Origin: Sulfurimonas sp.
Lineage (GTDB): Bacteria > Campylobacterota > Campylobacteria > Campylobacterales > Sulfurimonadaceae
Length of the DNA: 64,000 nt
Reading direction: 5' to 3'
NCBI RefSeq assembly: GCF_041583195.1
Contig: NZ_JBFHGL010000003.1
Location: forward strand, 62,001-126,000
Shown: positions 5,733-51,398 of the stretch, one piece after another
How positions within the stretch are numbered: position 1 is the first letter of the stretch
Layout of the letters: each line of letters opens with the position of its first letter
Notes under the pieces: generated by a model
Told to the model about the DNA's origin: nothing
Database searches by the model: none
Seen by the model: only the letters and a program-made list of their open reading frames with translations
Program-made: the position numbers and the translations under genes

Positions 5733-7852
5733 TTTTTACCATTTTCTTTCGCTTTGTACAGTGCTTTATCGGCTCTATTTAGGGCACTGTCAATATTCTT
5801 GTCATCTTTTAAAACATTATCTACACCTAAACTAATGGTAAATTTTATTTTTAGGTTTTTGTCTATAGTCACTATTTCATTTTCAACTATAGCTCTAAGT
5901 TTCGATGCTATATTCGTCGCACCCTTTGAGTCTGTATGTGGGAGAAGAACTATAAACTCTTCACCGCCGAATCTTGCTATTATGTCACTCTCTCTGGTAT
6001 GCGTTGTTAAAATATTTGATAGGCTTTTTATAACTTCATCTCCGACAGCATGACCATGAGTATCATTTATTTGTTTAAAATTATCAATATCAAGCATTAT
6101 GATTCCAATATCAGTTTTTTCTCTTTTTGAAATGGTTAAAAGATTAGAAGCTACATCATATAAATATCTTCTGTTGTATAGATTAGTTAAAGGATCCCTG
6201 TTAGCTTGTTCAACGAGTTTATCCTGCAGTGCTTTTAGCTCTTTGTTTGCAAGTGATAGCCTTCTGTATGCGTAAATACCTATAGCTGCTAATATTGTAG
6301 CAATTACTAAGATTTTTATAATAAGACTATAGTCAGTGCCTTTTTCATATTTAATAGCTATATACCTATTTAATATATCTTGATGTTTACGACTTGATAT
6401 ACTCTGAATAGATTTTTCGAAAATATTTTGAAGTATAGGTTCATCGTTTCTAGTACCTATGCCAAGTTCCCATTTTTCATCAAATTTACCTGTGATTTTT
6501 AACTCACCCATGAAGTTTTTTTGAAAAGCATAACCTACACTTGCCAGCGTGCCGATAAAACCATATAGTTCACCGTTTATAACTTTTTGCAAACCGTCAT
6601 TTATATTTTTTACGTCTACTACTTTTATATTTTTGTACTTTTGTCTTATGATTTCGTTAAATGCATAACCTTTTACAATACCTATTCTTTGATCTTCTAT
6701 ATTTCTCATATCATTTATAAACGGTACATGCATATTTGTCGCAAGAACTAAAGGTATACTCAAATACGGAGAGGTAAAATTCATATATTCTTTGCGTTCA
6801 GGTGTTTCCATAGCTAAAGAATAGATATCACAACCTCTTGTTTTAGCAATTTGTATTGATTCCGTCCAGGTGCTTGATGGTACTACTTTTATAGGTATGC
6901 CTATTTTACTTTCAAACAACTTGAAATATTCAGCAGTCATGCCAATATGCTTTCCATTTTGATCAAATTTTTCATATGGCATCCAATTTGGATCGATACA
7001 CATCTTAATAACTTTTTTATTTTTAAGATATTGATGTTGTTCTTTTGTAAAAACAAGCTCTTTTGTATTTGTCTTTGAAAACCATTTTTTTTGAATGTCC
7101 AGTTTTTCAGTTGTGGTTAAATTATCATATGCTTTATTTAAAATACTTATTAGTTCAGGAGAAGTTTTATGTGCTACAAAATATAGGTACTTTTTCTTAT
7201 ATGCTTGATCTTCAATATATCCGCCATGTTTGACATTTGTAATAATATTCTCACTCATCAGAAACTTGATTGTATTAATGTTGTCTACAATAGCATCAAC
7301 TTTATTCATTGATAGAGCTTCTAGCATACTCAAGCTATTTGGTAGTTCTATTATAGTGGCATTTGGGTACTTCTTTTTTAAAGTTTTAACAATATCCCAA
7401 TCTTTTCCTGTTGCAATAGTTTTACCGTCTAAATCTTCACTTGAGTGTATACTGTTTTCGTCTGTTCTTATAATATAGGAGTTTTTATATGGCATATATG
7501 GAGCTGAAAAAAGATATTTATTATCTCTTGATTTATTCCATGCCATAGTATGCATCAGATCTATTTTGTTGTTGTTAAATTTTTCTAAAAGCTCACTCCA
7601 AGAAGGAGCGTTTATAAACTTAACTTTTATTCCGGATTTTTCAGCTAGTTTTTTTATTAGATCTACAGAGTATCCTCTGGCTACTCCATTTCTATTATAG
7701 TCACATGGAGCCCAATCACTTTGATTGCTGACTTTTACTACAGAGTGTTGCTTGATCCAGTCTTTTTCTTTTTTTGTCAGATTGAGTTGATCGGCTAGTA
7801 TAAAGTTATTAAATATTAAAAAGTAAGTAGTAAAAACTAAAATGTATTTCAT
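5696..7852 (-). CDS. Diguanylate cyclase with tandem periplasmic solute-binding sensor domains
   Basis: A 718-aa membrane protein. A signal sequence (1-20) is followed by two type-3 solute-binding domains (about 30-260 and 275-495) as in amino-acid sensors, a transmembrane helix near 515-535 and a C-terminal GGDEF domain. The active site is intact (GGEEF at 629-633), and the inhibitory I-site RESD lies five residues upstream. Ligand binding in the periplasm presumably controls c-di-GMP synthesis in the cytoplasm. Only a distant SD-like GGGGA is seen, inside a short tandem repeat upstream. The end overlaps the opposing EAL phosphodiesterase gene. Confidence 0.92.
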   Translation of the reverse strand: MKYILVFTTYFLIFNNFILADQLNLTKKEKDWIKQHSVVKVSNQSDWAPCDYNRNGVARGYSVDLIKKLAEKSGIKVKFINAPSWSELLEKFNNNKIDLMHTMAWNKSRDNKYLFSAPYMPYKNSYIIRTDENSIHSSEDLDGKTIATGKDWDIVKTLKKKYPNATIIELPNSLSMLEALSMNKVDAIVDNINTIKFLMSENIITNVKHGGYIEDQAYKKKYLYFVAHKTSPELISILNKAYDNLTTTEKLDIQKKWFSKTNTKELVFTKEQHQYLKNKKVIKMCIDPNWMPYEKFDQNGKHIGMTAEYFKLFESKIGIPIKVVPSSTWTESIQIAKTRGCDIYSLAMETPERKEYMNFTSPYLSIPLVLATNMHVPFINDMRNIEDQRIGIVKGYAFNEIIRQKYKNIKVVDVKNINDGLQKVINGELYGFIGTLASVGYAFQKNFMGELKITGKFDEKWELGIGTRNDEPILQNIFEKSIQSISSRKHQDILNRYIAIKYEKGTDYSLIIKILVIATILAAIGIYAYRRLSLANKELKALQDKLVEQANRDPLTNLYNRRYLYDVASNLLTISKREKTDIGIIMLDIDNFKQINDTHGHAVGDEVIKSLSNILTTHTRESDIIARFGGEEFIVLLPHTDSKGATNIASKLRAIVENEIVTIDKNLKIKFTISLGVDNVLKDDKNIDSALNRADKALYKAKENGKNQLCIFKEGLSI

Positions 7853-41485: not shown

Positions 41486-41827
41486 ATGACACTAGTTGAA
41501 CTTTTTACAGACTATATCGTTAATAGAAAAGATTTAAAAGATTATGTAGAAGAGCGTAAGACAAGAAATGAGAGAGGTGAGTTTAATGATACTAAACTTC
41601 TCACTGCTCAGGAAAATTTAGATAGATTAAAAAAAGAAGATTTAAAGACTTACGAACAGATGTATATGATTTTGGACAAAATAATGAAAGCAGACAGAGG
41701 TCACTATGTAGAGTATTCTATAAATTTTACAAAAGCTATCTTAAAGATGTACAGAGGACATGCTACACCGGAAGATGTGTGTAAAGAGTATGCAAAAGAG
41801 TTAAATCATCGTTATCACGATGCATAA
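41486..41827 (+). CDS. Small helical protein of unknown function
   Basis: 113 aa, soluble, strongly charged and predicted all-helical (many Glu, Lys, Asp, Tyr). No family recognised. SD AGAGGGAG lies about 10 nt before the ATG. It sits alone between the mogA repeat and the cysteine-depleted SdhB/SdhE-like gene, 82 bp upstream of the latter and in the same direction, so joint transcription is possible. Confidence 0.6.
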   Translation: MTLVELFTDYIVNRKDLKDYVEERKTRNERGEFNDTKLLTAQENLDRLKKEDLKTYEQMYMILDKIMKADRGHYVEYSINFTKAILKMYRGHATPEDVCKEYAKELNHRYHDA

Positions 41828-41909
41828 ATAAATTCAATGCTCATGGATTTTAAAGATTTTCAAGTATTAAACGATAAAATTTTTTTAGCTATTAAATTAG
41901 GAAAATAAA

Positions 41910-43049
41910 ATGGATAATAAATTAAATATAGAAGTTTATAAGTTTAACCATAAACAGGATTATTTACCGTACTATAAACAATACACTATAAAGTTTAAAG
42001 AGGATGATACTGTAGAGGATTTGCTTGATGCGATAAATTCTTTAGAAAAGATTGGTTATGAAAAGTCTTGCAACGTTTCAATAAATAAGCTATTTGTAAA
42101 CTCAAGAGAGTCAATAGAGAATGTTATTAACAAGCTTGGTAAAGATTTAAAAATTGAACCTATAAGTAAATTCAGAGCTAAGAACGATTTGATAATTGAT
42201 AAAAATGACTACTTAGGCAAACTAAATAGATTTAATCAGTTTTTAAAAGAAGATGAACTGCTTAAATATGAAAAAGAGCTTGAACTGCTTTACTATTCAT
42301 CTAATAGTATTAACTACAACAGAGATTATATAGGCGATCATTCTCTACTTATAGCTTATGATATTATCAAAAACAAACCTGAGTACAAAAAAGCTATTTT
42401 AAATATACTTTCTGATGAAAACAACGGTATATATAACTATACTTCTTCAAAAAAGCGTATGTTTAATTACGATGATTCAGTTGATGAAAAAGTTGAATAT
42501 CTATTTGAACTTGTAGGTGAACATACAAAGCCTCTCTTAGCGCAAAACAAATACTTAAGCAGTTTTTTTAACAAGCTTATGAAAAAAGATGAATCAGTAT
42601 CTAAAGAAGAGTCAAACACTCAAAAGAATGTAGATATAAAACAGTATTTTGAGAATTTCAATATAGCATACTATGCTGATGACCAAGACCTAAATATAGA
42701 AAAATATATAATAGATTCAAAGGCAACGTTTATAAAAACAGATATGCAGCATGAACAAATGCCAAAAAGAAATTTTACGCAAAATACAAAACTTCTTAGA
42801 GCAATTGCCGCAGATATATTGCTAGATGCTAAAGATAACAATGCAGATTTTTTAATAGTAAAAGATGAGCAGCTTATCAGTCTGTTTGATAAAGATCAAG
42901 ACAAACTAGCTTCTATATCAGGTAGAGAGATTGATATGATCATTATCAGTTTTTCTCAGTTTTTAATGCTGCTAAGTGGAGAAAAAGACAAAGAGGTTTT
43001 AGGTCTTGACAAGCATAAAGTCAAAGTTGACTTTTTAGCTTCCGCTTAA
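41910..43049 (+). CDS. Cysteine-depleted fusion of SdhB-like and SdhE C-terminal-like domains
   Basis: 379 aa. Residues 5-220 align with SdhB (gene at 46425-47405): VYKFNHKQDYLPYY matches VFRFNANDDYLPYY, EPISKFRAKNDLIIDK matches EPLSIKRSVKDMIIDK, and YIGDHSLLIAYDI matches FMGPAAFAKAYRF. Residues 247-379 align with the second CCG half of SdhE (45534-46415): NFNIAYYADDQD matches DFNIAPFYGCHN, and LGLDKHKVKVDFL matches LGLNHHLTKVDFV. Of all Fe-S cysteines only C54 survives. The protein therefore cannot carry these clusters and may be a decoy, assembly or regulatory subunit. SD AGGAAA. The stop shares a TTAA palindrome with xth. Confidence 0.8.
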   Translation: MDNKLNIEVYKFNHKQDYLPYYKQYTIKFKEDDTVEDLLDAINSLEKIGYEKSCNVSINKLFVNSRESIENVINKLGKDLKIEPISKFRAKNDLIIDKNDYLGKLNRFNQFLKEDELLKYEKELELLYYSSNSINYNRDYIGDHSLLIAYDIIKNKPEYKKAILNILSDENNGIYNYTSSKKRMFNYDDSVDEKVEYLFELVGEHTKPLLAQNKYLSSFFNKLMKKDESVSKEESNTQKNVDIKQYFENFNIAYYADDQDLNIEKYIIDSKATFIKTDMQHEQMPKRNFTQNTKLLRAIAADILLDAKDNNADFLIVKDEQLISLFDKDQDKLASISGREIDMIIISFSQFLMLLSGEKDKEVLGLDKHKVKVDFLASA

Positions 43050-43857: not shown

Positions 43858-45381
43858 CTAAAGAGTTTTATCTTTCATATTTTTAAACTCTTTAATAATT
43901 TCAACCTGTCTATTTTTTATATATTTTAGAAGATGATTTTTTTGATTTATATTTAAATTTAGTAAAAATACTACATTTGAATTATGTTGTTCTTGAGCCT
44001 CTCTCAGTACTATGGCTTCTGAGTTTATAATTAATGGTTTGTTATCAATATTAAAAATTATATCAATGGTAACTTTATCGTTTTTTTTCAAATTAAGTGG
44101 TACATCTTCAAATTTTAGATTAACTGACTCTATAGAAATGTCTATTATGCTGATATCTGTTTTATATCTTTGGTTATTAATAAATAATGAAACACTATAT
44201 TTAGAGTTTGGTGATAAACGAATTGTTTTTCTAAGTGCCGGAGATGTTCTTGAAAATTCCAAGTCTCCAAGTTCAACAGTGTGTTTCTTGTAGTCGATTT
44301 TTACCACTTTATTGCAAACAATGCTATATGGTAATACAGGTGATGTTATTATGGCTCTTTTATCTATCTGTATCGCTTTTTGTTGTAGATAAACTGTTGT
44401 AATAGTTATACTATTTTCTTTAACATCAATAATTTCTGCATCGTGTACTATAGTTAAGCCTTTATAGTAGTTATGTACATGTACTTTAACTTTACTTTTT
44501 TGAAGAAGTTCAAGTAGGTTGTAAACATTTTCTTTATCTTTTTCAAGTAGTTTTGTTTTTGATTCGTTATGTGCTTTTTCTGTATCTAGTGTTTTAGTTA
44601 AATCAAGTTCTGTAACATCGTCAAAAGATAAAATAGCATAGGCTTTTTCTTGAGATATAAGATGGTATTTAAATAAAAAATGTCTCGGCTCACCACGTTT
44701 ATTTTTAATTTGGACATGGAATAGGTTGTTGTGATGTGCTTTTGCATTGTCAAGCCAATAGTTGTTCAATTGGCTAAATAAATATCCTTCATGATGTAAA
44801 AAAAACTCACCTAAATCAGGATACTTATAATTAAATTCTTTTACACTTTCTACATTGAAAAAATTTAAAAAAATATGATTTGCAACTACAGGTCTTCCGT
44901 TCTTCAGCATGATAAGCATAGATTTATCATGGTTATATATATTATATACATACGTATTGAATATCTTTATATCATTTTCATGTTGAAGTTGCTGTATACA
45001 AAAATTTATAGCATCAGATAATTCAGTCGGTGTTGCGGGCTTAACTAAAAATTTTGTTACACCTAAATTTATTGCTTCCATCAGCATTATATGGGCATCA
45101 AATTTTGAGATAAGTATAATTTTTGTATTTGATTTTATATCTTTTATACGAGTTACGGTTTTTACCCAGTCATAACGTCGATCATCTATATCTATAATAA
45201 CTATTTTTGGCTTGTGAGTTCTGAAAATATCTATAGCTTCATCAGCATTTTGTGTATTATAAACATTAGTAAAATGCTCTTCTAAAATATCTGAAACCTG
45301 TTTTCTAAAGTCATATTTATTTTCGATATATAAGAGTTCTAGGTTATTTAAGCTATTTAATATATGTTTATTATCATACAC
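43858..45381 (-). CDS. Response regulator with REC, PAS-like and PilZ domains
   Basis: 507 aa from GTG (SD AAAAGG 9 nt upstream). REC domain at about 13-130, with phospho-acceptor Asp in VIIDIDDRRYD and Lys in LVKPA; PAS-like segment at about 150-265; short coiled coil; a beta domain (about 295-370) resembling the YcgR-type N-terminal partner of PilZ; and a C-terminal PilZ domain with RKTIR (384-388) and DISIES (414-419, with Ser where Gly is usual). It likely joins phosphorelay input and c-di-GMP binding. No kinase gene is adjacent. Confidence 0.75.
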   Translation of the reverse strand: MYDNKHILNSLNNLELLYIENKYDFRKQVSDILEEHFTNVYNTQNADEAIDIFRTHKPKIVIIDIDDRRYDWVKTVTRIKDIKSNTKIILISKFDAHIMLMEAINLGVTKFLVKPATPTELSDAINFCIQQLQHENDIKIFNTYVYNIYNHDKSMLIMLKNGRPVVANHIFLNFFNVESVKEFNYKYPDLGEFFLHHEGYLFSQLNNYWLDNAKAHHNNLFHVQIKNKRGEPRHFLFKYHLISQEKAYAILSFDDVTELDLTKTLDTEKAHNESKTKLLEKDKENVYNLLELLQKSKVKVHVHNYYKGLTIVHDAEIIDVKENSITITTVYLQQKAIQIDKRAIITSPVLPYSIVCNKVVKIDYKKHTVELGDLEFSRTSPALRKTIRLSPNSKYSVSLFINNQRYKTDISIIDISIESVNLKFEDVPLNLKKNDKVTIDIIFNIDNKPLIINSEAIVLREAQEQHNSNVVFLLNLNINQKNHLLKYIKNRQVEIIKEFKNMKDKTL

Positions 45382-45533: not shown

Positions 45534-46415
45534 TTAAACGAAATCAACCTTAGTAAGGTGGTGATTAAGACCTAACTCATCAGGAGTACAACCAAGAGCA
45601 AGACCAAGCATTTGCTGCATATGTAATACAGGAAGTGCAACTTCACGACCGATTGCTTCAGATGCATGGTGAGTTTGAGTATCTAGTTTTAAGTGACATA
45701 GTGGACATGGTGTAACCATCCAGTCAGAATCGTTATCCATTGCACCTGCAATTGCATTACCAGTTAATGTAGCAGCAGTTTTTGGTGCTTGTAATTCAGC
45801 ATGGAAACCACAACACTTTGTTTTTTCTGCATAATCAACATTATTACCGCCACAAGCGATGATTAAATCATCTAGTGAAGTAGGGCGGTATGCACTCTCT
45901 GCAGACTTATGAGTTTCATTTTGAAGCTCTGAAGGGCGGATGTTATGACAACCGTAGAATGGTGCAATATTAAAATCACGAAGAGGTGTTTTAACCATCT
46001 CTTTAATCTTATCAAGACCAAAGTCATCAATAATAGCATATAAGAAGTGAGTAACTTCAGATGTACCTTTGTATTCAAGACCAACTTCTGCTAATTTCTC
46101 ATTTACTTGAGCTTTTAGTTTTTCGTTATTATCTAAACGGTGTTTAGTCATAGCAGTATTAAGCTGACATGTATTACAGATAGTAACCATAGTTAAACCA
46201 TGCTTCTCTGCATATGCTATATTTCTAGCATTTAGTACTAAAGATAAAAAGTCATCATAGTCTTGTAGATGTGAAGCTCCACAACAAGAAGCTTCAGTAA
46301 GTTCTACTAATTCTATTCCTAATTTATCAGCAACTGCCATAGTAGACTTCATTTGTTCAGGAGTACTTTGCTTAGCTGTACAGCCAGTAAAAAGTGCGTA
46401 TTTTAATTTTTCCAT
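45534..46415 (-). CDS. sdhE: Succinate dehydrogenase/fumarate reductase subunit E (HdrB-like, two CCG domains)
   Basis: 293 aa. Two cysteine-rich CCG domains with complete motifs: C12, C44-C45, C80, C83 and C156, C201-C202, C237, C240. These domains bind non-cubane or zinc centres in HdrB-type proteins and in type E succinate:quinone oxidoreductases, where SdhE replaces the haem-b membrane anchor and passes electrons to quinone. No TM helix; membrane association would be through amphipathic helices. It starts 9 bp after sdhB. Not the unrelated FAD-assembly factor also called SdhE. Confidence 0.9.
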   Translation of the reverse strand: MEKLKYALFTGCTAKQSTPEQMKSTMAVADKLGIELVELTEASCCGASHLQDYDDFLSLVLNARNIAYAEKHGLTMVTICNTCQLNTAMTKHRLDNNEKLKAQVNEKLAEVGLEYKGTSEVTHFLYAIIDDFGLDKIKEMVKTPLRDFNIAPFYGCHNIRPSELQNETHKSAESAYRPTSLDDLIIACGGNNVDYAEKTKCCGFHAELQAPKTAATLTGNAIAGAMDNDSDWMVTPCPLCHLKLDTQTHHASEAIGREVALPVLHMQQMLGLALGCTPDELGLNHHLTKVDFV

Positions 46416-46424
46416 TTTTATCTC

Positions 46425-47405
46425 CTAGAACTTCACAGTTGATGATGATTTAACAAGCTTTTTAATCTCATCAAGGTTTTGTGATTTTGTAATTGCCCAT
46501 GGTGGTACAATTTTACCTTTTTTAAACATTTTAAGTGCTACAGGTACATGTTTAACGATAGCAGGACCTTCAGAGTAAAGAACTAATCCACCCTCGTCAA
46601 GTACACCGTTTTTAGCAATTGAGTGTTTAAACCCAACTGCATGGCGAGTAGCAACATTTGAAGTTGCAACACCCTCTTTAAACAGCATTTGGTGAAGCTT
46701 AGTGATCTTATCAATAGGATTAACCTCTTTAGGACAAACCTCTGCACATTCATAACATTTAACACAGTCCCAAACACCTTGTTTCTCAGAGTGAAGCTCA
46801 GATAGTCTCTCTTTATGAGCCTGATCACGTACATCTGCTTCAAAACGGTAAGCTTTTGCAAATGCAGCAGGACCCATAAAATTATCGTTTACTTCAATTA
46901 CAGGACAAGCATAGTGACATGCACCACATTGGATACAGATATCTGCATCTAACAGTGCTTCAGCTTCATCTTGAGTAACTATATGTTCATGCTCAGGGTT
47001 TTCATCAACATCAGAGATTAAGAACGGGTGAATTGCATCGTGTTTCTGCCAAAAGTCACCTTTATCAATGATCATATCTTTTACAGAACGCTTGATGCTT
47101 AGCGGTTCAATTGTAAGCTCGTTTCCAAAAAGCTCAATCATAGTTGTCATGCTCTCTTTACAAGCAAGAGTACTCCTACCATTTACTTTTATAGCACAAG
47201 CACCACAAATACCGTGACGACAGCTTCTTCTATATGAAAAGCTTCCGTCATGATCCCATTTAATTCTATTTAATATATCTAGTACAACTTCTTCAGAAGT
47301 TACATCCATCTCATAGTTTTCGTAGTATGGAAGATAATCATCGTTAGCATTAAAACGAAATACTTTGAAGTTTACTTTTTGTGTTGTAATACCATCTGTA
47401 CTCAT
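46425..47405 (-). CDS. sdhB: Succinate dehydrogenase/fumarate reductase iron-sulfur subunit
   Basis: 326 aa. [2Fe-2S] ligands C62, C67, C70, C82; [4Fe-4S] region C157, C160, C163, C167; and C214, C217, C220, C224. The extra Cys (C217) relative to E. coli SdhB predicts a second [4Fe-4S] in place of the [3Fe-4S] centre, as in other type E enzymes. About 80 residues longer than E. coli SdhB because of a C-terminal extension. It passes electrons from SdhA to SdhE. 17 bp after sdhA. Confidence 0.94.
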   Translation of the reverse strand: MSTDGITTQKVNFKVFRFNANDDYLPYYENYEMDVTSEEVVLDILNRIKWDHDGSFSYRRSCRHGICGACAIKVNGRSTLACKESMTTMIELFGNELTIEPLSIKRSVKDMIIDKGDFWQKHDAIHPFLISDVDENPEHEHIVTQDEAEALLDADICIQCGACHYACPVIEVNDNFMGPAAFAKAYRFEADVRDQAHKERLSELHSEKQGVWDCVKCYECAEVCPKEVNPIDKITKLHQMLFKEGVATSNVATRHAVGFKHSIAKNGVLDEGGLVLYSEGPAIVKHVPVALKMFKKGKIVPPWAITKSQNLDEIKKLVKSSSTVKF

Positions 47406-47422: not shown

Positions 47423-49135
47423 CTAGTATGTTCTTGCTTTAAGTTCATGTTTGCCAAGAACGACATCCATGTAATCAAGTGTAATATCACCGTTATTATC
47501 CATATAAGCCATAGTATGCTTTAGGAAGTTTTCATCATCACGAGATTCGAAATCTTCTCTATAGTGAGCACCACGACTCTCATTACGAGCAATGGCACTC
47601 TCTACGATAAATGCTGAATAATCGATCATGTGTCCAAGCTCAATTGCTTCTTGTAATTCAGTATTGAATATTTTAGATTTATCTTTAATACGGATATTTT
47701 TAAATCTTTTTCTTATCTCTTTAACGTCTGCAACAGCTTTTGCTAAAGTCTCTTTAGTTCTAAATGCACCAGCATTTTCTGTCATAGTGTCTTGAAGTTC
47801 TTCTCTTAGTTTTGTTACAGTCTCATCACCGTTGTTACTTAATACAAAGTCGATTTCTGCTAAAGCAGTAGCAGCATCTTCTTCAGTTGCAACTCTTAGT
47901 TCAATTTCATCAACTTCTGCAACCATAGTTTTACCAACGTAGCGACCAAATAGAAGCGCTTCAAGAACAGAGTTTGCACCAAGACGGTTAGCACCATGAA
48001 CAGATACACATGAACACTCACCAGCTGCATAGAAACCTTCTACAAGTTCATCGTTGTTCTTTCTAACGTGACCAGGAATATCTACAGGAATACCACCCAT
48101 TGAGTAGTGTGCAGTTGCAGAGATTAAAATAGGTTCTTTGATCATATCTAGACCTAAGAATGTAAGTGCTAAGTCACGTAATTCTGGAAGTCTTTCCATA
48201 ATTAGATCTTTTCCTAAGTGAGTTAGATCGATATATACAGCATCTTTTCTTGGACCAACACCGCGACCTTCACGAATCTCATTTAAGATAGCACGAGATA
48301 CAACGTCACGAGATGCAAGTTCCATTGCATTTGGAGCATATTTTTCCATAAAACGCTCACCCTCAGAGTTAAATAAACGTCCACCTTCACCACGAGCAGC
48401 TTCAGATATTAAAACACCGTTTCCTGAAAGACCTGATGGATGAAACTGTACAAACTCCATATCTTCTAATGGAAGACCGTGACGAGCTACAATAGATAAA
48501 CCATCACCTGTATTTGCATGAGCATTTGAATTGATTTTATATGAACGTGCATAACCACCAGTAGCAAACATAACTTGTTTACAGTTAAAGATAGCCATTT
48601 GCATATCGCGGATATTAAACGCTACAACACCAGATACTTTTCCGTCTTTGTAAATGATATCTGCAGCATACCACTCATCCCAAAATTTTACACCAACACG
48701 GTGTGCTTGTTCATAAATAGTTTGTAATAATGTAAGACCAGTTCTGTCTTTTGCATAACAAGCACGAGGTGAACTTTGTCCACCAAAAGGGCGTTGAGCA
48801 ATTTTACCGTCTTTACAACGGCTAAAAGCTGCACCCATTCTTTCTGCCCAGCGAATAGTCTCTGGTGCATTTTTACACATAAACTCAACTGCATCTTGAT
48901 CAGCAAGATAATCAGCCCCTTTAACAGTGTCAAATTCATGAAGTTCAACAGAATCTTCGTCACTAAAAGCTGCATTTACACCACCTTGAGCTGCACCAGA
49001 GTGGCTTCTTAAAGGGTGTAGTTTTGTAATAACGGCAACTTTTTTTCCTGCATTTTGCAATTCTCTAGCTGCTGCACAGCCTGCAAGACCGGCACCAACA
49101 ATTATTGAATCGTAAGTATAGATAGGAATACTCAT
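47423..49135 (-). CDS. sdhA: Succinate dehydrogenase/fumarate reductase flavoprotein subunit
   Basis: 570 aa. FAD-binding [15 protein letters not shown] (11-25), the covalent-flavin His45 in [10 protein letters not shown], and substrate-site blocks FHPSG and [16 protein letters not shown]. There is no twin-arginine signal, so it is cytoplasmic, unlike the periplasmic MfrA of Campylobacter and Wolinella. It acts in the TCA cycle or its reductive direction. First gene of sdhABE; no sdhC or sdhD anchor is present. SD AAGGAAA precedes the ATG. Confidence 0.96.
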
Positions 49136-50579: not shown

Positions 50580-51398
50580 TTGAATATAGAAAATCATTTT
50601 ATTTCACAGTTTAGCAGTGTCAACATAGGAGATGACGGAGCCTATATAAATGGTTATGTTTATTCAAAAGATGCTTTTTTTGAAAACATCCATTTTAAAA
50701 CAAAATGGATGAGTTATTATCAAATTGGTGCAAAAGCAATGTTAGTAAATATCTCTGATGCTATTGCAATGAACGCAAAACCAATGTTCGCACTTTTGGC
50801 TGTAGCTATGCCAAAGAGTATTTCAAATGAACAAATGGCTGAGCTTGTCAGGGGATTTGAAGATGTTGCTTGTAAGTATGGTATTGAGATAATAGGTGGA
50901 GATACTATAGCTAATAACAAACTTGACATAACTGTGACAATTATCTCTAAAAGTAAAAAACCTCTTTTTAGAAAAGGGATAAGAGAGAATGATTTATTGG
51001 CTTATACAGGTGAACTTGGCAGAAGTAAAAAAGATTTGAAAAAGCTTTTAAGCGGTGGTAAAATAAATAAAAACTCTAAGTTCGTAAATATTAAGCTAAG
51101 AGATAAGTTTGTTAGTCAAAATAGAAGATTTTTAAATGCCGGAATGGATATATCTGATGGATTATATACAGATTTGGAAAAAATTCTTGATTCTAATAAA
51201 ATAGGTGCTAAAATTTTTAAAAAGTTAGATAAAAGAATAGTGTGTAGCGGTGAAGAGTATGAGATGCTTATAGCCTTTGACAGACGTCATAAAAAAACAA
51301 TTTTAAGACGTTCAAAACTCTCTAGAGTCAATCTAACCATTTTTGCAAAAGCAAAACAGATTAGATATCGCTCTAGATGTAAAGCAAATCATTTTTAG
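50580..51398 (+). CDS. thiL: Thiamine-monophosphate kinase
   Basis: 272 aa from TTG with AAGAG upstream. Phosphorylates TMP to the cofactor TPP. The Mg-ATP motif IGDDGAYI (17-24), the MNAKPMFALLAVAMP block, GGDT and NAGMDISDGLYTDL are present. About 50 residues shorter than E. coli ThiL, which looks like the normal short form of this phylum because the C-terminal GEEYEML motif is kept. It leads thiL-truD-psd. Confidence 0.92.
   Translation: MNIENHFISQFSSVNIGDDGAYINGYVYSKDAFFENIHFKTKWMSYYQIGAKAMLVNISDAIAMNAKPMFALLAVAMPKSISNEQMAELVRGFEDVACKYGIEIIGGDTIANNKLDITVTIISKSKKPLFRKGIRENDLLAYTGELGRSKKDLKKLLSGGKINKNSKFVNIKLRDKFVSQNRRFLNAGMDISDGLYTDLEKILDSNKIGAKIFKKLDKRIVCSGEEYEMLIAFDRRHKKTILRRSKLSRVNLTIFAKAKQIRYRSRCKANHF

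Follow-up and report, generated by a model that had tools for sequence, protein, structure and literature searches.

A cluster-less counterpart of the SdhB–SdhE module in Sulfurimonas: an SdhB–half-SdhE fusion protein of the DUF5644 family

The protein described here belongs to DUF5644, a family that is already catalogued and for which a crystal structure has been solved. That structure, of HP0468 from Helicobacter pylori (PDB entry 3kwl), was released in 2010 and has been listed without an assigned function (PMC3397514). HP0468 has also emerged as a hit in a genome-wide association study, which called it a hydrogen-induced gene of unknown function (PMC6090961), and among genes over-represented with flagellar sheaths, the authors of the latter study cautioning that the approach is phylogenetically confounded (PMC9570263). 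No functional study of the family, HP0468 and 3kwl included, was found in the literature searched, which lay mostly outside subscription journals, and no printed source was found there for the domain interpretation that we give below for the family as a whole. Among the known partners and assembly factors of complex II, SDHAF2 and SDHAF4 are chaperones of SDHA, TRAP1 is bound by SDHB, and Tim18, which is paralogous to an SDH anchor subunit, serves another complex (PMC10238741). The SdhABE of Wolinella is a Tat-exported methylmenaquinol:fumarate reductase (PMC2680327).

We analysed a stretch of 64 000 nucleotides from Sulfurimonas sp. (the window), in which a first-pass annotation had described one gene as a natural fusion of SdhB with half of SdhE, stripped of its Fe–S cysteines. 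The gene (Table 1) begins with ATG at 41910 behind a good Shine–Dalgarno sequence (AGGA, 41899–41902) and continues to 43049 without an internal stop, giving a product of 379 residues with a single cysteine (C54); the long open frame and its ribosome-binding site are therefore as first described. An Rfam search near the gene gave no match, and promoter and terminator scans around it gave results at chance level. Immediately 5' of the gene, in the same orientation, is a 113-residue open reading frame to which no family was assigned (41486–41827). The sdhABE operon is indeed encoded on the other strand, with the end of sdhE 2.5 kb from the fusion gene, and the two are separated by two genes, one of which we take to be exonuclease III-like. 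The other, a PilZ-domain response regulator (43858–45381; Pfam), is located between the exonuclease III-like gene and sdhE. The SHS motif of the window SdhA is consistent with covalent FAD, and we saw no Tat-type N-terminus.

Table 1. Positions of the fusion gene, its parts and the neighbouring genes used as context (window coordinates)
Feature	Position	Strand	Evidence
Cluster-less SdhB–HdrB fusion gene, DUF5644 family, 379 residues	41910–43049	+	Pfam, PDB sequence search, profile–profile comparison, AlphaFold2, structural comparison
AGGA, probable Shine–Dalgarno sequence, 7 nt 5' of ATG	41899–41902	+	Direct sequence reading
Residues 1–103: SdhB N-terminal [2Fe–2S]-type fold, cysteine loop deleted	41910–42218	+	Pfam Fer2_3; vacant ligand columns; AlphaFold2 model and 1kf6_B match
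Residues 104–205 (= DUF5644): SdhB C-terminal helical domain without [4Fe–4S] cysteines	42219–42524	+	PF18712, E = 2.7e-8
Residues 206–242: helix, then linker; 223–237 predicted to be disordered	42525–42635	+	pLDDT < 50 at 223–237
Residues 243–376: second CCG-type half of SdhE/HdrB, cysteine-free	42636–43037	+	PF22196, E = 3.6e-6; hhalign to SdhE; 5odc_B, Z 17.5
sdhE (context), genuine, cysteine ligands present, two CCG domains	45534–46415	-	Pfam; NCBIfam
sdhB (context), genuine, 12 cysteines	46425–47405	-	Pfam; NCBIfam; alignment
sdhA flavoprotein (context)	47423–49135	-	ORF list
thiL (context), recurring neighbour of the fusion locus in other genomes	50580–51398	+	AIRS domain; synteny

In Pfam the window protein matches Fer2_3 at residues 6–101 (E = 1.4e-7, above the cut-off) and DUF5644 at residues 106–202 (34.2 bits against a gathering cut-off of 25), with HdrB-like_C (PF22196) at residues 298–370 falling below the cut-off; PF02754, which describes the CCG motifs, has no match in the protein. 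Profile–profile comparison using hhalign relates the fused family to SdhB with a probability of 99.8 across residues 2–203 and to SdhE with a probability of 98.7, clear across residues ~240–376, while the four non-homologous pairings that served as controls all scored 0.3 or less. The AlphaFold2 model of the window protein has a pLDDT of 87.4 and a pTM of 0.81. On structural comparison, FrdB (1kf6_B) matches residues 1–214 of this model with a Z score of 14.5, and HdrB (5odc_B) matches residues 232–379 with a Z score of 17.5; the C-terminal part covers HdrB only from HdrB residue 120 onwards, as it does in relatives of similar length. The top structural match is 3kwl (Z 27.1, 361 residues, r.m.s.d. 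3.0 Å), which a PDB sequence search also retrieves with the window protein (E = 2.4e-20). The window protein is a catalogued member of DUF5644 with a solved relative and not an orphan. It is confirmed to consist of an SdhB-like domain pair (residues 1–205), a disordered linker and the second half of SdhE/HdrB (residues ~243–376). Profile–profile comparison, AlphaFold2 and structural comparison agree on this SdhB and half-SdhE parentage, and both likenesses that had been drawn by eye are borne out by significant matches. We regard its identity as a cluster-less twin of the SdhB–SdhE module as close to certain.

To describe the former cluster sites, 86 dereplicated relatives were aligned to SdhB. 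None of the 12 SdhB ligand columns retains cysteine as a feature of the family. The columns of C62, C67 and C82 are gaps in 85–86 of the 86 sequences, and the loop of the first cluster ([2Fe–2S]) is deleted in the family alignment. The C167 column has become serine in 80/86 relatives (Ser131 in the window protein) and the C214 column histidine in 51/86 (Tyr177 in the window protein), and the remaining sites hold mixed, mainly hydrophobic residues. The ligand columns of SdhE are vacant too, with a second CCG-motif cysteine occasionally kept in split and other relatives. The stripping of the cluster cysteines was thus read correctly from the single sequence, whereas the accompanying claim that C54 is the one remaining ligand was rejected, as its column is occupied by Phe, Leu, Ala, Ser or Ile in most other relatives; its pairing with a ligand came about by chance through the placing of gaps. 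The recurrent serine and histidine could be taken to mean that a new ligand or metal is bound at the old cluster sites, through Ser131 and, in many relatives, the histidine at the C214 site, but the tyrosine at this position in the window protein and the mixed, mostly hydrophobic character of the other sites make this very unlikely. With the ligands missing, electron transfer through clusters is excluded. The residues conserved in the N-terminal half are mostly those that SdhB conserves (D17–Y22, P84, R89, D93 and D100), which fits a retained binding surface.

PF18712 has matches in no fewer than 156 of 298 Campylobacterota genomes and in 0/14 control genomes; one pattern scan and these 14 controls gave no relatives outside Campylobacterota. 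The scan of genome contigs was built on a nine-protein alignment of the family; an alignment of all 27 family proteins was too divergent as a query, and a contig scan with the window protein alone returned no matches. The family occurs in three layouts. In Sulfurospirillum-like genomes, some Campylobacter-like genomes and parts of Helicobacteraceae, two adjacent genes encode an SdhB-like protein (~210–255 residues) and an SdhE-like protein (~210–300 residues). Helicobacter has a long fusion of ~500 residues, the form of 3kwl/HP0468, with both HdrB halves. A short fusion of ~340–410 residues without the first HdrB half, the form of the window protein, is found in Sulfurimonas, Sulfurovum, Arcobacteraceae and part of Campylobacter. 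Profile–profile comparison pairs 278 of the 281 columns of the split SdhE-like protein with SdhE, and the model of this protein is a complete HdrB fold (Z 31.7 against 8rvy_B). In the tree, the N-terminal halves of the family form a single clade (support 100/100) that excludes E-type SdhB, MfrB and FrdB, and fusion took place on at least two occasions. This repeated fusion and the tight spacing of the split genes (-4 to +10 nt between them in 15/16 pairs) make it probable that the two halves work as a pair, in the manner of SdhB and SdhE. The family is a paralogous copy of the SdhB–SdhE pair in which all cluster ligands have been lost and both folds have been kept.

Pairwise dN/dS values among family relatives range from 0.06 to 0.25, and the family is under purifying selection in these relatives; the nearest available relative of the window copy has 43 percent identity, so the values are evidence at the level of the family. 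A functionless copy, decaying or relic, would accord with the patchy occurrence in Sulfurimonas, where only four of the sampled genomes were found to have the gene. Set against this are frames that are intact across the phylum and the low dN/dS values, which led us to rule out a relic or pseudogene as extremely improbable, in agreement with the first-pass annotation. The loss of the clusters and the retention of the shape under selection point to a role other than electron carriage.

Linkage to sdhABE is frequent where both are present. The proximity seen in the window recurs in other genomes: an E-type sdhE and the family gene are at most ~6 kb apart in 13 of the 15 sampled genomes that have both. 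The family gene directly adjoins sdhA, on the same strand or divergently, in 26/34 loci with both on one piece, although these loci were collected via the family gene and are not a random sample for such a count. Among same-strand short fusions the gap to sdhA is 134–229 nt in 18/19 cases, a spacing that does not show a common transcript. Because thiL and truD also persist at the fusion locus in other genomes, a tandem duplication may have left the adjacency behind as a relic. In eight genomes sdhE aligns in two pieces inside one longer frame (323–359 residues), which suggests an insertion between its CCG halves. In Sulfurospirillum-like genomes the split pair lies between thiL and a desulfoferrodoxin gene and sdhABE is gone, and elsewhere sdhABE occurs without the family gene. 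Behind sdhABE, and likewise behind the split pair, there is often a gene for a desulfoferrodoxin of the superoxide reductase type (10 loci), as if the pair had replaced the operon. Most Sulfurimonas genomes have SdhABE and lack the family gene, which is therefore not required.

By hand tally, the family gene is present in 15 of ~70 genomes with an E-type SdhE, and an E-type SdhE in ~10 of the 156 DUF5644-positive genomes. In mirror-tree comparisons the family distances correlate with those of SdhA (r = 0.866) exactly as with those of the bystander ThiL (r = 0.866), and the value for the family and SdhA given ThiL is the same as that for the family and ThiL given SdhA (0.303); the positive control, SdhA and SdhB given ThiL, reached 0.763. 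As the gene is common without sdhABE, sdhABE is common without the gene and co-evolution is at the level of ThiL, it is unlikely that the protein is an obligate subunit or regulator of SdhABE. Of the original interpretation, the natural fusion, the removal of the ligands and the proximity to sdhABE stand, and a subunit or regulator dedicated to sdhABE finds no support. The same figures bear on a decoy or negative regulator that would compete with SdhB–SdhE for SdhA and throttle complex II. A cluster-less mimic of SdhB–SdhE that often adjoins sdhA would suit such a part, but most members occur in genomes without E-type SdhABE and their distances follow SdhA no better than ThiL, and we consider this improbable.

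From a module whose shape is kept and which can no longer carry electrons through clusters, we infer docking at the SdhB(-SdhE) site. The explanation that we put first, tentatively and at somewhat less than even probability for identity and mechanism together, is that of a redox-dead SdhB–SdhE twin that docks on complex-II-type flavoproteins or assists in their assembly. The protein would dock at the SdhB(-SdhE) position on such a flavoprotein, SdhA or, where SdhA is absent, FrdA. By keeping the place temporarily or by chaperoning assembly, it would hold, mature or stabilize the flavoprotein. It would be an accessory factor rather than a core component, since many SdhABE or FrdABC genomes lack the family gene. 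At least one dhsB-type subunit is present in 40/40 genomes checked, so a possible partner is always there. FrdB is present in 237/298 genomes, family-negative ones included, and is missing from some family-positive Sulfurimonas genomes; an association with FrdB was accordingly rejected as the cause of presence. PF03937, the Sdh5/SdhE flavinylation factor, was above the cut-off in 0/298 Campylobacterota genomes, with E. coli and Caulobacter positive as controls. This absence counts for docking, as do the adjacency to sdhA, the purifying selection and the existence of known SDHA chaperones. Counting against it are the deletion of the 2Fe–2S loop, which in complex II faces SdhA, the ThiL-level co-evolution, the absence of the gene from SdhABE genomes and neighbours that are not complex II genes. 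That the protein is a shape-mimic chaperone, holding the SdhB site of SdhA or FrdA until the real subunits load in a phylum without a recognizable SdhE/SDHAF2, seems unlikely.

Those neighbours are an argument for a scaffold that has been neofunctionalized outside complex II, its fold kept for stability and its partners new, for example the products of small lineage-specific genes on its 3' side. In Arcobacteraceae, Helicobacter and Campylobacter the family gene is located beside murA, pepF or rsmD and not beside complex II genes. With Q for the family gene and c8, c9, c14 and c20 for its uncharacterized neighbours, the orders are murA-Q-c14, pepF-c20-Q-c9 (Helicobacter) and Q-c8-rsmD-flg (Campylobacter); these tightly spaced neighbours differ by lineage, and c14 lies within 24 nt of the family gene in 34/35 Arcobacteraceae loci. 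In almost every Arcobacteraceae locus the fused gene is followed by one for a protein of ~200 residues that has a hydrophobic N-terminal segment and belongs to no Pfam family (in one such locus at 6938–7564 of the locus sequence). The cell envelope, flagella and metabolism are candidate processes, and the over-representation of HP0468 in Helicobacter with sheathed flagella would be in keeping with the second, subject to the caution of its authors about phylogenetic confounding (PMC9570263). On the other side, few positions are newly conserved and the conserved residues of the N-terminal half are mostly those of SdhB, and c8, c9, c14 and c20 lack Pfam matches above the cut-off and so indicate no alternative process. 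The lineage-specific neighbours, the dissociation from sdhABE and the lack of co-evolution beyond that with ThiL nonetheless make such repurposing possible, and nearly as likely as docking.

Roughly one in two Campylobacterota genomes in the sample, including ones of Helicobacter and Campylobacter type, has a conserved DUF5644 gene. Reading the family as a cluster-less complex II module turns it into a testable hypothesis on flavoprotein maturation without the standard factor, and makes it a clear example of an electron-transfer module retained for its shape alone.

The closest known protein, 3kwl/HP0468, belongs to the same family and has the same SdhB-like to HdrB-like order as the window protein, and a homologue of 496 residues, from a Helicobacter genome, can be matched to 3kwl_A along its whole length; HP0468, at ~500 residues, has both HdrB halves, whereas the window protein lacks the first, which membership of the Pfam family does not demand. 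SdhB/FrdB shares its fold and conserved non-ligand residues with window residues 1–205, but has 12 ligand cysteines of which the window protein keeps none, and the family forms a separate clade. The E-type anchor SdhE and HdrB share their fold with window residues 243–376 and are matched end to end by the split relatives; they have CCG cysteines and two halves, and the window protein has the second half only and no CCG cysteines. The SdhABE encoded in the window is, by sequence, E-type and SQR-like, and belongs to a different group from that of Wolinella. The assembly factors SdhE/SDHAF2 and SDHAF4 resemble the window protein only in the proposed docking to a flavoprotein, being unrelated in sequence and size. 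TfrB of thiol:fumarate reductase has the same one-chain SdhB to HdrB order, and its NCBIfam model (PRK06259) is the best weak match, with 36.5 of 385 bits, far under the cut-off; TfrB is a cluster-bearing enzyme, unlike the window protein.
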